64,000 bases of DNA from Mariniflexile gromovii. Its GTDB lineage: Bacteria > Bacteroidota > Bacteroidia > Flavobacteriales > Flavobacteriaceae. Within the stretch, counting starts at the first letter, position 1, and every line of letters starts with the position of its first letter. The notes under the pieces were generated by a model. It had not been told where the DNA came from. It saw only the letters and a program-made list of their open reading frames with translations, and did not search any database. Shown piece after piece: positions 57,541 to 62,908 of the stretch. The stretch spans positions 62,001 to 126,000 of the forward strand of contig NZ_JAGJCB010000007.1 in NCBI RefSeq assembly GCF_017814435.1, written 5' to 3'. Both the position numbers and the translations under genes were made by a program.

Positions 57541-58459
57541 CTATTGAAAACTATTTAATTTGCAAAGTTGACATATTTTGTGCTACCTATTGGAAGCCTA
57601 CAGGCAACGTTTATTTAGGAAAGTTGCATATTTGTGTACGAGGCTTTTAGAAGTAAAATCTAATATAACAAAGGGGGCTCGGACTCTTTGGTTAATCACT
57701 AATTTGAGCATTATTTTTATACGGTTAGACAGCTATTTAACATTCAATATTAACCGTTACTGAAATGCTACAAATTCCAACTGTTAAAAAAATCAGTCCG
57801 ACCAGTACTGTAAAATTAAACTAAAAATATTAATTTTTTTTATTTTCCAATAACGAATTTTTTAGGTTCTTTTGGATCACATATAATCTCAATCTGTATA
57901 TCAATATTCTTTAATAAGTTCGAATTTTACTTTAATGATAGCATGTTTTTTCTTAACTTGAATTCCATTTTTTAGATGCTAATTCGACAGTTAGTGTTTT
58001 ATGTCCGTCAGTGTTTGGTTCGTCTTACAGAAGAGGTGTGCTTAATAAATATATCTTTGATAAAATTGCTCAAACCAGAGAATAAACACAAATACGGATT
58101 ACCAGATTATATTTATCATAGACCACATGAATTGGATAACACTCTACATAGAAACAGAAGTATTATTTTAGAAGTTTTGGAAAATTAAATAATCATAAAA
58201 AAGGAGACCAATAAATTCGGCACATTACCCTGCATTGCGCGAAAAGCTGCATTTCGGAAAAAGAGCTTCATTAAAAAAATCTTACATGATTTCAAACTTT
58301 TTAGATTTATTCTTCGTATTTTCAATTCTTATTACAGAAAAGACATTACATTTTTGGAAATAATAGTATTTTTTTGTCCTGATATATCGGGATGAAAAGG
58401 ATTTCCATGATAAAAACAATGAAAAAATGAAAAATTTAAGCCCAAAAAAAACAATACAA
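57541..58459. other. Gene-poor gap with a possible decayed coding fragment
   Basis: This 919-bp AT-rich stretch has no convincing intact gene. At 58030-58188 the plus strand reads, across one frame change, 'YRRGVLNKYIFDKIAQTRE' and then 'NKHKYGLPDYIYHRPHEL ... RNRSIILEVLEN'-stop, which looks protein-like and may be the tail of a lost gene. I do not recognise the family. Sequence after 58190 up to the IS110 element shows nothing clear. Confidence 0.3.
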
Positions 58460-59455
58460 TTAAGCGACACTTTTTTGATATGGCTTTTGCCTTTTAATAA
58501 CAGCACAAACTCTCAAAATGAGTTTGTTTCTTACATTATTAAGGATAAGCATTTTATTTTTTCCTTCATCAGCCTTACGTTTATAGTAAATTTTAAGTTC
58601 TGGGTCATATCTGACCGCAGACAAGGCACACATATGCAAGTGCCTTTTCATCGTTTTGTTAGCCATGTGGTGCACTCTGGATCTTTTTTGTACGGAAGAG
58701 CCAGAAGTATGCTCAAAGGGTACAACACCACAATAGCAAGCCAGTTGTTTGGCTTCTTGATACCTGGTAAAGAAGTTTGTAAAAATAATGAGATATAAAG
58801 CCGTCATGATACCAATTCCTGTAACTGAAGTAACAAGTCCTACAGTTGTATTTAGCTTTTCATCAGCAAGAATGAAAGCTTGTAAATCTGCTTCTATTCG
58901 TTTAATCTCATCATCGAGGCATTTGTTGGTCTTTCTAATCTGTTTTTCGGCAAGCTTTCCCAGCTCAGGAGCAAAATGGTTTACTTCATTTGGGTATTTA
59001 TTTAAATCCGCTTTGAAGTTCACAAGTTGTTCCCTTGCTTTGATAAGAATCTTTATTTTTTCAAGAATTTCAGGAATTGGTTTGTACATTTCCATCTCAT
59101 TACAGTTTTTAACTGCATATTGGGCTATACGAATGGCATCTATTTTGTCGTTCTTACCGCGTTGTATTCCTAAACTACGGGTAATTCTTAAAGACATCTC
59201 CACACAGAAAACAGCTTCTGTTTCTAAAAGTTTTGTGATAAGTAAGTTTCCGTATATACCTGTATGCTCCATACAAATAAGAGTCTCATTTAAAGGCATT
59301 CGCTGGTTTTTTAGCAGTTTTAAAAATGCTTTGACACCTTTGATGGAATTGTCAAATAAAAATGATTTTATAGTCTCTCCATTGATGATAGCGACATCGA
59401 ATGTGTGTTTGGATACATCTATCCCAACAAAGTACAGAAAGTCTGATTTTTTCAT
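58460..59455 (-). CDS. IS110-family transposase (DEDD recombinase)
   Basis: An intact recombinase of 331 residues from the Met at 59455 (the frame is open 14 codons further, but 'MKKSDFLYFVGIDVSK' is the family start). The RuvC-like DEDD domain shows D13 in 'GIDVSK', the Glu in 'CMEHTGIYGN' and the two Asp in 'GKNDKIDAIRIA'. The C-terminal Tnp domain has 'SVTGIGIMTALYLI' and 'YCGVVPFEHTSGSSVQKRSRVHHMANK', with the catalytic Ser region. It should cut and join DNA guided by a bridge RNA encoded in its own non-coding end. In the IS110 subgroup that end lies 5' of the gene, where two structured repeats are found. Confidence 0.93.
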   Translation of the reverse strand: MKKSDFLYFVGIDVSKHTFDVAIINGETIKSFLFDNSIKGVKAFLKLLKNQRMPLNETLICMEHTGIYGNLLITKLLETEAVFCVEMSLRITRSLGIQRGKNDKIDAIRIAQYAVKNCNEMEMYKPIPEILEKIKILIKAREQLVNFKADLNKYPNEVNHFAPELGKLAEKQIRKTNKCLDDEIKRIEADLQAFILADEKLNTTVGLVTSVTGIGIMTALYLIIFTNFFTRYQEAKQLACYCGVVPFEHTSGSSVQKRSRVHHMANKTMKRHLHMCALSAVRYDPELKIYYKRKADEGKNKMLILNNVRNKLILRVCAVIKRQKPYQKSVA

Positions 59456-59502
59456 AATAGAAGGTTTAAAAAATGTAACATGTAAGATTAAACACAACCA
59501 AG

Positions 59503-59653
59503 AATCTGAGGTATCATCTAATCCCTAATAATAGGTCTGTAAACCTGAATTTCCATTTGATGCCAATTCAGATATAACCGATAAAGGATTTAATCCGACC
59601 TTATAAGTCCGAAACTTTGAAGAGCAATTAATTCTCCTTTATCGGTTTGGTTG
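59503..59653 (-). ncRNA. Candidate IS110 bridge RNA, copy A
   Basis: Read on the minus strand (the transposase direction), it has a 13-bp stem AACCGATAAAGGA / TCCTTTATCGGTT closing a loop of about 46 nt that holds an inner CTTATAAG hairpin. A second domain is closed by TCTGA / TCAGA, with CTGAATT / AATTCAG and CCTA-TTAT-TAGG hairpins inside. Two stem-closed internal loops 5' of an IS110 recombinase fit the known bridge RNA plan (one loop for target, one for donor DNA). It begins about 50 bp before the transposase start. Guide bases cannot be assigned without the element ends. Confidence 0.6.
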
Positions 59654-59788
59654 CTATTCATAATTATTGAAGGTATAATATAGGATAAAAAACAATCCAA
59701 CCTTCTATATGAACAACAATATAGACCTGTTAAATACTAGTAAGTATTTAAAGATTAATTTTTTTGATATGATGTAAACACAATTTAT

Positions 59789-59932
59789 AATCTGAATTAT
59801 CATCGAAACCCTAATATTAGGTCTTAAAGCCTGTATTTCCATTTGATACGATTCAGAGATAACCGATAAAGAAATTTAAAAGTATAAGCCCAAAGCTTTA
59901 TTCGCGTTTAATTCTTCTTTATCGGTTGGTTG
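59789..59932 (-). ncRNA. Second, diverged bridge-RNA-like element, copy B
   Basis: It aligns with copy A from end to end. The main stem is AACCGATAAAGAA / TTCTTTATCGGTT, so the fifth-from-last pair positions changed together (GG/CC region to GA/TC), keeping pairing. The second domain is closed by TCTGAAT / ATTCAGA and keeps the CCTAATATTAGG hairpin and a shared 'ATCAAATGGAAAT' segment. The loop sequences differ most, as expected if guide sequences differ. It may be the remaining left end of an older IS110 copy or a second working guide RNA. Confidence 0.55.
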
Positions 59933-60040
59933 TAATTTACAATTACGGAGGGTTTTCTTAAGTAAAAGATAAAGTTCATTTTAAGGAACGATTATCTTAA
60001 AAGAAAGCTCTATGTAAATGACATTGCGAATCTAAGGGAA

Positions 60041-60084
60041 GAGCAAGAGCAAGAGCAAGAGGGTAACACGCTACGCGATGTTAC
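60041..60084 (+). repeat. Short GAGCAA tandem repeat and adjacent hairpin
   Basis: GAGCAA is repeated three times (60041-60058), followed by an inverted repeat GTAACA / TGTTAC (60063-60068 and 60079-60084) with a GC-rich centre. It lies in the gap between the IS110 end and the BfmA-like gene. It is too short for CRISPR; it could be slippage sequence or a nick/transfer-related structure. Confidence 0.35.
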
Positions 60085-60210: not shown

Positions 60211-60750
60211 ATGGACGATTTTAATACCATTCGGCTAAGGAAAAAGACCATCAATAATTTTAAGGAATATTCGAAAATGATAAGCCCCAACTATTCGGAA
60301 ACCCTGGATTATATGATTGCCTACTTTAAGGACAACAACATTTCGCCCTACGACCTACCAAATAAGTTTGGCCTAAAGCCTCTCATTAATGACCTCAATA
60401 AAAGAACGAATGCCATTGCTACCATATTAAGGGACATTGAGAAAAATCAACTTGAACCAACTAGACAAAGATTGGAATCGCTCTTCGATGCTATGGACGA
60501 GATAAAGGAGCCCATTTACATCGCTAAAAGCCTGCCGGAGATTGAAGCTTCAAAATCTGATACAGAAAGGATGCTGGATTATTATTCCAATGCGTATGAA
60601 AGTAAAAATAGAGAGCTACACCTTGTTAAGACCGAACTTAAAAACCTTGTGAAAAATTTATCTTGTGTAAAGAATACATTTGGCAAAGATTATTTCAGAC
60701 TGGATATGTCTAAAGAAAAATTAGAAGATATCAAGACCAGGTTGCTTTGA
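60211..60750 (+). CDS. BfmA/BtgA-like mobilization protein
   Basis: A 179-residue protein with a ribbon-helix-helix-like start ('FNTIRLRKKTINNFKEYSKMISPNYSETLDYMIAYF'), then 'NNISPYDLPNKFGLKPLINDLNKRTNAIATILRDIEKNQLEPT' in broken form and a coiled-coil tail. This matches the BfmA/BtgA family, accessory DNA-binding proteins of Bacteroides mobilizable elements. The relaxase gene that normally follows (BfmB/BtgB) is missing, so the mobilization module is incomplete. It would bind the transfer origin and help relaxosome formation. Confidence 0.82.
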   Translation: MDDFNTIRLRKKTINNFKEYSKMISPNYSETLDYMIAYFKDNNISPYDLPNKFGLKPLINDLNKRTNAIATILRDIEKNQLEPTRQRLESLFDAMDEIKEPIYIAKSLPEIEASKSDTERMLDYYSNAYESKNRELHLVKTELKNLVKNLSCVKNTFGKDYFRLDMSKEKLEDIKTRLL

Positions 60751-61394: not shown

Positions 61395-61745
61395 TTAGTT
61401 ATCCTTCTTTTTGTTCTTTGAAAGGATTTCAGTGACCCTGTCCATGCAGAACATCTGATCATGTGGCAAGAGGTCGATGACCATTTCGAGTACCTTGGTC
61501 ACACTACTTATTGGTGTTTTATTGCTATGCTTGGGGTAAACAAAAGTTCCATTGCCATCCAAGGCATAATAACATACTTCCAAGAGTGCCGAAATGCTGC
61601 TTGTAATGTCCTCATTATCGAATACCTCAAATCCGATGGTCTTTCGTATCCTATTCCCATAAGCTTCCGTGTTTACTCCAGGGAAGTTTTGAATGTGCTT
61701 CTTAATTGCTTTCAATTTCTTTTTATATTTCTTTTTTTCTTTCAT
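61395..61745 (-). CDS. Small protein related to the C-terminal domain of the upstream HEPN protein
   Basis: The 116-residue protein is Lys-rich at its start ('EKKKYKKKLKAIKKHI'), then has a globular part ending 'VTKVLEMVIDLLPHDQMFCMDRVTEIL'. That ending matches 'IKEVLGYVLDMIPHNEMKLLDVIKDLV' at the C-terminus of the neighbouring 387-residue protein, and 'SALLEVCYYALDG' matches 'LLKVCIIAMESDYY'. So it is a free-standing paralog of that domain. The start overlaps the upstream stop as TAATG, which implies translational coupling. A partner or modulator role is inferred; no function is known. Confidence 0.75.
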   Translation of the reverse strand: MKEKKKYKKKLKAIKKHIQNFPGVNTEAYGNRIRKTIGFEVFDNEDITSSISALLEVCYYALDGNGTFVYPKHSNKTPISSVTKVLEMVIDLLPHDQMFCMDRVTEILSKNKKKDN

Positions 61746-62908
61746 TAGTCTTTTGTTTCTGGTTCTAAAACTAAATCCTTGATAACATCCAACAGCTTCA
61801 TTTCATTATGGGGTATCATATCCAAGACATATCCTAAAACCTCTTTAATGTTATGGTCTGGCTCAGGTATAGAACGTGTTGAGTAGTAGTCCGATTCCAT
61901 GGCGATAATGCATACCTTTAAGAGATTTGAAATCATAAAAGAGGTTTCTAAATAGCCTTCCGTAACTATTCCAATGGTATAATGTCCCTTTTTAAAGGGA
62001 TAGGGTATTAAAAAAGAGAAATCCTTTTTGGACAGGGATTTAATAAAACTTAATAAGTCTGTGTCTTTGGGTTCAAAACTTTGTTGCTTAGGAACTTTTA
62101 TTTCTTTAGTATTTGATACTTCAACAATACAGGCATCCCATTTATTTTTAAACAATGATGTAGCCAATAATTTCATTTTATTGGCTTTCTCCAATATTCT
62201 ATGGGTTTGTTCCAAGTTGATATGGTAATTGTTTTCATAACGTGTAGTTATATATGCATCATCCAATAATTTTAAAAGATGTTGCTCCTCCTGTATTTCT
62301 GTATTAAAAAGGTTTCCCAGTTCTGGAGTAAATGTTCTTATATAGGTTTGAAGCTCCTTAATACTATGGCTTTTACGTTCCTTGCCCATTGTAAATAGAG
62401 AGACATATCTAAACCATAGTTCTATATGTTGGTGCAGCATATAAGCGGCATGGGACAGATTATTTTTTTCAATAAAAAAAGTCGTTCCATCCAGAAATGC
62501 AGCTATTTTATCTCGTTCCCTTTCGAAAAGGGATTGGATATTTTTTTTTGTTTTTTCAGTAGCATAATACTCATGAAAACTGTCCAATTCTGTGTCAGAA
62601 TTTTGAAAGATTAATTTGTCCCCAGTGCATCCATGAACAAAGAACAGGTTCTCTTCTTTTAACTGCTGATGGGCATATTCAAACGATAATATCCTGTATA
62701 AGAAATCCGTTTCTTCCTGAAATATTTTTGCGACCATAGAGGATAATTCTTTGGTTAAGGAAGAACTGTTTCCTTTCAAAACGACAATTAATAGGGATTT
62801 GTTATAGTCATCAAACTTAAGGTCTGACTGGTAGATGTATTTTACCTCGAGAAAAGTTGTAAGCTTATTTACGACCATTTCCATATGTGAATTAGTCTCT
62901 TGATTCAT
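61745..62908 (-). CDS. HEPN-domain protein with nucleotidyltransferase-like N-terminus
   Basis: A 387-residue protein. Residues 1-115 have a pattern reminiscent of nucleotidyltransferase-like domains ('SLLIVVLKGNSSSLTKELSSMV', 'RILSFEYAHQQLKEENLFFVHGC'), without a clear GSxxxxxxD triad. Residues 130-260 form a HEPN-type helical domain ('NNLSHAAYMLHQHIELWFRYVSLF', 'RKSHSIKELQTYIRTFTPELG'). The C-terminal 90 residues are shared with the small coupled protein downstream. HEPN proteins are often RNases or partners in defence and toxin-antitoxin systems. It diverges from an Xre regulator, in a mobile region, which fits a defence or stability role, not proven. Confidence 0.7.
   Translation of the reverse strand: MNQETNSHMEMVVNKLTTFLEVKYIYQSDLKFDDYNKSLLIVVLKGNSSSLTKELSSMVAKIFQEETDFLYRILSFEYAHQQLKEENLFFVHGCTGDKLIFQNSDTELDSFHEYYATEKTKKNIQSLFERERDKIAAFLDGTTFFIEKNNLSHAAYMLHQHIELWFRYVSLFTMGKERKSHSIKELQTYIRTFTPELGNLFNTEIQEEQHLLKLLDDAYITTRYENNYHINLEQTHRILEKANKMKLLATSLFKNKWDACIVEVSNTKEIKVPKQQSFEPKDTDLLSFIKSLSKKDFSFLIPYPFKKGHYTIGIVTEGYLETSFMISNLLKVCIIAMESDYYSTRSIPEPDHNIKEVLGYVLDMIPHNEMKLLDVIKDLVLEPETKD

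Follow-up and report, generated by a model that had tools for sequence, protein, structure and literature searches.

Two bridge RNA copies in one IS110 element

The window analysed here, a stretch of 64,000 nucleotides from Mariniflexile gromovii, contains an IS110 element in which two related copies of a predicted bridge RNA, A and B, lie in tandem upstream of an intact transposase gene. All three read on the minus strand. The transposase (recombinase) gene at 58460-59455 is adjoined by copy A (59502-59676), and copy B (59788-59955) lies upstream of A in the same sense as the gene. The 331 aa product matched the Pfam families DEDD_Tnp_IS110 (PF01548) and Transposase_20 (PF02371), the DEDD (RuvC-like) plus Transposase_20 combination of the IS110 group. 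It scored 154.6 bits against the NCBIfam model NF033542, 'IS110 family RNA-guided transposase' (cut-off 140), and could be aligned to the ISCro4 and IS621 chains of the PDB.

The ends of the element were located by comparing its copies with each other and with empty target repeats. These junctions define an element of 1638 bp at 58400-60037 (minus strand), bounded by copies of TC at 60038-60039 (left junction) and 58400-58401 (right junction), and TC is the likely core of the element. Measured from the junctions, the left end is 582 bp (59456-60037) and the right end 60 bp (58400-58459), the long non-coding left end 5′ of the transposase and the short right end that are found in the IS110 group. 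The left donor, ATGGAAATC, lies at the right end of the element (58400-58408, minus strand). Two-RNA copies of the element are 1585-1682 bp long (n=10) and single-RNA copies 1321-1356 bp (n=8); the lengths shared between genomic copies, within limits that include some common flank, are 1626 bp for the two G427 copies and 1361 bp for the G440 copies. Because of the junction-defined ends and these lengths, both A and B are placed inside one element, 58400-60037. An older IS110 insertion, of which one copy would be the left end, had been offered in the original prediction as a source of the doubling. This is contradicted by the junctions, by the lengths and by the persistence of the two-RNA arrangement in nine distinct elements. 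The absence of a second left-end terminus, CCTTAG, from the three B-A spacers examined also weighs against it. A copy of the left-end leader inside the B-A spacer was considered as well and was not supported.

The limits given for the two copies are those of the modelled RNA. A and B are 82% identical across 73 nt, with further blocks at an equal spacing of ~285 nt, and scored 191.1 and 170.5 bits, respectively, with a covariance model, R1, whose training set includes both sequences. A profile of the two copies matched 59472-59674 and 59757-59954 on the minus strand, as it must by construction. Both retain a 13-bp stem (AACCGATAAAGGA/TCCTTTATCGGTT in A, AACCGATAAAGAA/TTCTTTATCGGTT in B) that differs by a single compensated pair, G-C to A-T. 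The largest difference between them is at the left target guide loop (identity 0.36), whereas the arms of the target-loop stem are 0.84 and 0.93 identical. The pair of bridge-RNA-like copies at 59503-59932, their shared stem with changes on both strands and the concentration of differences in the internal loops had all been anticipated from the letters of the DNA, and each was borne out; only the strand needs amending, since the plus strand had been described and the RNA reads on the minus strand like the transposase. Single-sequence minimum free energy folds disagreed about the donor loop, so structure was assessed on alignments instead. Neither copy had a match in Rfam at gathering thresholds, and a sigma-70 promoter scan gave 6 sites compared to 3.7 ± 2.1 in shuffles. 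No second copy of the stretch was found in the window's genome; the only partial match was of 30 bases in the B-A spacer (59735-59764), which align with G000:C5:972-1001 at 90% identity (E 5e-4).

The element inserts into a palindromic repeat

A pattern for the target repeat, CCCTCTTGCTNTNC, gave 31 matches in seven genomes. Seven were left junctions of this element family and 22 were empty repeats (six genomes); the remaining two were L121, the left end of another IS110-like element, and L123, which is unlike the repeat. A typical empty repeat (L139) reads GTGATGGCGCAATTTGCGCATCACCCTCTTGCTATTC/CTTCGTCCCGCAAGCGGGAC. At occupied sites the repeat is split: its left half runs into the left end of the element, CC(C)TTAG, and its right half resumes after the right end, CATGGAAATC. 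As read from these alignments, the insertion point is directly after TTGCTNNTC in a palindromic repeat resembling repetitive extragenic palindromic (REP) sequences. All ten two-RNA insertions lie there, and 17 of the 18 junction sets have a CTTGCT left target, the exception being L101 at another palindromic site. Insertion is therefore site-specific and into a conserved target, as in the IS110 group. In the window (all minus strand), the left target in host repeat sequence is TTGCTCTTC (60038-60046), the left palindrome of the repeat is at 60063-60084 and the right palindrome at 58376-58393; the same repeat occurs elsewhere. At L104 and L107 the left junction is AC and the right junction TC, which fits top-strand cleavage after the core as reported for IS621 (PMC11208158).

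Three sites had further peculiarities. The left target in the window has grown by three additional units of the TTGCTC type (60038-60060, minus strand), which sets it apart from the other insertions. The right flank of L157 starts with TTAGATTCGC, resembling the element's own left end, and this copy has perhaps inserted beside an older left end. Elsewhere in the window's genome (L111/L121, G000:C39:2057-2089), a nearly identical repeat contains an IS110-like left end, TTGCTGTAC followed by CCCTTAG; the R1 match there had an E value of only 0.11, and tblastn of the locus found no transposase of this element's family.

A probable single origin of the two-RNA arrangement

Relatives were gathered by a scan of genome contigs (best 79 of 108 loci) and by protein searches of several genome draws. 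These gave hits in 3 of 397 family genomes of a whole-genome sample (E 1e-115), 7 of 395 genomes of a second family draw (E 1e-110), 2 of 393 genomes of the order (E 1e-110), 6 of 71 genomes from the genus of G403 (E 1e-100) and 1 of 6 genomes of the window's genus (E 1e-90). Some genomes belong to more than one draw; that of the window is counted in the first family, genus-of-window and order samples. RNAs were counted with the A + B profile and with R1, which was built from 20 RNAs and searched against 82 loci (L013-L016, from the same genome as L012, were left out).

A tandem pair upstream of one transposase was present in nine distinct elements from at least three genera: L083 (the window), L096 (= L004), L097 (= L010), L098 (= L005), L099 (= L006), L100 (= L007), L103 (with a second genomic copy, L105), L094 and L157. 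Their transposases are 69-100% identical to that of the window. The pair is more than a chance arrangement, since eight other genomes have it as well, upstream of eight related transposases. Six distinct elements with transposases 62-64% identical to the window's, L095, L101 (= L008), L102 (= L009), L104 (with L106 and L107), L159 and L161, have a single RNA upstream. No further tandem pair for one transposase was found among the other loci given to the R1 search, and many remoter relatives had one R1 match, in some cases weak, at the usual place. Two RNAs are unusual, as had been supposed. L020 and L064 were rejected as two-RNA cases because a second IS110 gene adjoins the second RNA in each; each locus is a pair of adjacent but different IS110 elements, both of which have a bridge-RNA match of their own. 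No relative was found on viral contigs, and the plasmid search returned one distant relative (49.7% identity).

In a transposase tree of 21 sequences, including eight of the nine two-RNA elements, the two-RNA state appeared as one change (support 75/71), and as a single change in 72% of 200 bootstrap trees. A tree of 24 RNAs grouped the eight A sequences together (67/81; 72% of bootstrap trees) and likewise the eight B sequences (58/76; 64% of bootstrap trees). The near-identical L105, L106 and L107 were left out of both trees, which also do not include L157, L159 and L161, found later. Diagnostic bases separate the copies in the same way: in all nine A copies the guide has ATTGC, the right target guide has GAT and the donor guide ends in TC, and the GAT and the TC occur in none of the nine B copies. 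With this moderate tree support, the doubling probably arose once.

Copy A matches the target and the element end

In A the left target guide is formed by the nine bases that precede the AAAG hairpin; in the window it is TTGCTCTTC (59619-59627, minus strand), identical to the left target at 60038-60046. It matches the left target at 9/9 positions in seven elements, where it reads TTGCTCTTC (window), TTGCTTCTC (L097) or TTGCTATTC (the other five), and at 8/9 positions in L096 and L094. Exact matches in five of seven distinct lineages were reached by 96 of 5040 permutations of the partners. The left guides of single RNAs match 6-7 of 9 target positions, except that of L101, with 3. The right target guide fits poorly by eye; CCCCCGA against TC/GGGGG in L101, which has a single RNA, and CTAAGA against TC/TTAG in copy A of L157 are the exceptions.

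The left donor guide of A is ATGGAAATTC (59547-59556, minus strand). Its body, ATGGAAAT, fits the right end ATGGAAATC when one additional RNA base is allowed for and is present in six of the nine A copies; those of the closely related L098, L099 and L100 have ATGGAAGT instead. Copy A therefore has the two matches that define a bridge RNA, of the target loop to the target and of the donor loop to the element end.

Copy B is conserved but does not match the target

The stretch of B equivalent to the left target guide, AACGCGAAT (59900-59908, minus strand), agrees with the target at 0 of 9 positions in the window, and B left guides agree at 0-5 of 9 across the elements. The guide of L103_B was reset by hand for a one-base shift in the pattern and gives 2 or 1 matches of 9. 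In contrast to its target loop, the donor loop of B does match the element end. The left donor guide is ATGGAAATAC (59833-59842, minus strand), its body ATGGAAAT is intact in 9/9 B copies, and it fits the right end with the same extra RNA base as that of A.

Conservation was compared over seven lineages, leaving out L099, L100 and the near-identical L105, L106 and L107. Mean pairwise identity was 0.79 for A and 0.78 for B, and the B-A spacer was near random (0.54 compared to 0.49 when shuffled). Similar values were obtained for the target-loop arms (0.80 and 0.91 in A, 0.83 and 0.87 in B) and the left donor guide (0.91 in A, 0.92 in B). The left target guide was 0.90 identical among A copies but 0.57 among B copies, for which the shuffled value was 0.43. 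Smaller differences were seen at the hairpin (0.86 vs 0.78) and the right donor guide (0.88 vs 0.75). In the stems of B, 7 of 37 pairs have changed on both sides, a number equalled in none of 500 shuffles. The stems of A are 97% paired with 2 two-sided pairs, which 109 of 500 shuffles reach.

The two copies also differ consistently at core positions. TC ends the left target guide, and GAT is present in the right target guide, in 9/9 A copies and 0/9 B copies. The left donor guide ends in TC in 9/9 A copies and in AC or CC in every B copy (TC 0/9), and the right donor guide has GATT in 9/9 A copies and GTTT or GGTT in B (GATT 0/9). The four single RNAs that could be tallied, of six, have the three usual features (3/4, 4/4 and 4/4) and lack the right-donor-guide GATT (0/4), so that GATT is a trait of A's own rather than a loss in B. 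The other two, L102_S and L161_S, failed the module pattern and only their left guides were added, by hand. A second core for B, AC rather than TC, was considered: eight of nine B copies are self-consistent (AC/GT or CC/GG), the exception being L157_B. The bases of this putative core could alternatively pair inside the RNA.

Possible roles of the second RNA

We lean, by a narrow measure and from sequence comparison, towards A being the working bridge RNA and B a retained, non-targeting paralogue that serves as a donor-side partner or as a brake. An old tandem duplication would have given two bridge RNAs at the left end of the element. A would work as an ordinary bridge RNA that directs the element into the REP-like repeat, and B, by analogy with IS621, would load recombinase and pair with donor DNA but be poor at strand exchange at this target. 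Loading and donor pairing by B would be expected because the loops of IS621 probably come from two RNA molecules (PMC11208158). B might then, in trans, supply the donor-binding half of the synaptic complex, or it might act as a brake by occupying recombinase and donor ends. Partner and brake stand about level: the core changes lean to a brake, and the intact donor guide with the two-molecule model of IS621 leans to a partner. The sharper version, with A directing and B a dedicated donor-pairing RNA barred from target strand exchange, as partner or built-in brake, is more tentative and in our estimate falls a little short of an even chance.

Several observations weigh against these proposals. 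The donor loop of A itself looks intact, so A seems independent of B, and the scaffold of B's target loop is also conserved, which a pure donor-loop RNA would not need. Pair types in B are not raised (485 of 500 shuffles were as high as observed), two of its helices reach no more than 60% and 74% pairing, and two-sided pairs numbered up to 4 in slid controls of the B stems, a count seen in one control. The right-donor-guide GATT difference is by itself no sign of lost function, and the single RNA of L104 occurs at targets that mismatch its core.

The original prediction had suggested a second target specificity. On this account the hypervariable left guide of B would read other sites and the element would have two landing programmes. 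Retargeting would produce such hypervariability, and the B guides of L096 and L157 are identical (GGCGCTAAAT) although the two are distant, their RNAs sharing 148 of 180 aligned positions. In L096, 8 nt of the B guide also match the palindrome that flanks this element, on the bottom strand, a match we did not use as evidence of function; the other B guides match their flanking palindromes over only 3-6 nt. However, none of the ten two-RNA insertions is at a B-type site, all ten being at the site that A matches, and B is without the core-pairing bases, GAT and TC being absent from the target-loop core of 9/9 copies. Second targeting is therefore unsupported and the less likely explanation, to which we give a minor share of probability.

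A role for B as the guide for excision (circle formation), with A guiding insertion, appears improbable. Excision of IS621 is called unclear in PMC11208158 and B retains its donor guide, but the right target guide of B has no clear complementarity by eye to the left-end CCTTAG and its left guide has no more than 5 nt in common with either donor end. Equally doubtful is that B is a decaying, functionless relic of the duplication: its target guide varies freely and it differs at the core positions, but its scaffold is as conserved as that of A beside a near-random spacer, its stems have compensatory changes, its donor guide body is intact and it is kept in all nine elements found of the clade, and the conservation and stem changes in particular make a relic unlikely.

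Neighbouring genes

On the left-end side of the element, 60211-60750 (plus strand) encodes a BfmA/BtgA-type mobilization protein (NCBIfam NF041200). By eye, the single-RNA element L095 has a similar gene start on its left-end side too, and two lineages may thus have landed in the same repeat beside the same gene. Further on are a gene for a HEPN-domain protein (61745-62908, minus strand; Pfam PF05168) and, following it, a small gene (61395-61745, minus strand) with no NCBIfam match.

Comparison with known systems

As a new class of programmable guide, bridge RNAs have been described with one RNA per element. We found no report of an IS110 element with two natural bridge RNAs in the open-access literature, subscription papers and preprints lying outside the search; in PMC11208160 the sole mention of 'two bridge RNAs' concerns designed guides. 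A lineage that has long kept two RNAs, one of which has a freely varying target guide and changed core pairing, allows two questions to be tested in nature: whether different molecules supply the target and donor halves, and whether such IS110 elements have an RNA brake of their own. Any such answer would be useful for engineering bridge recombinases.

The element resembles IS621 (PMC11208160, PMC11208158) in its left-end RNA upstream of the transposase, with a target loop followed by a donor loop, in the match of the target guide to the left target and of the donor guide to the right end, in its REP-like target and in its DEDD/serine recombinase. Each guide of IS621 contains the core (PMC11208160). 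A synaptic complex of IS621 probably takes its target loop from one RNA molecule and its donor loop from another, and the loops also function in vitro as separate RNAs (PMC11208158). Unlike IS621, which has one RNA and the core CT, the element described here has two RNAs, the core TC and a second RNA whose target guide does not match. The element has in common with ISPa11, ISPpu9 and ISPpu10 that it inserts into palindromic extragenic repeats, as IS110 elements were already known to do (PMC1525189); the repeats and hosts of those elements are others, and the available text mentions no second RNA. As with the seekRNA of IS1111/IS110 elements (PMC11187229), an RNA from the long non-coding end would guide the choice of target, but one RNA per element is described there, and the main text of that paper contains neither 'two seekRNA' nor 'second seekRNA' nor 'tandem'. 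In TIGR-Tas systems (PMC12045711), too, guide RNAs in tandem accompany a relative of the IS110 recombinases; the transposase of the window scored 23.2 bits against the TIGR-Tas model (cut-off 100). In TIGR-Tas the guides form arrays, whereas the transposable element of the window contains two full bridge RNAs.
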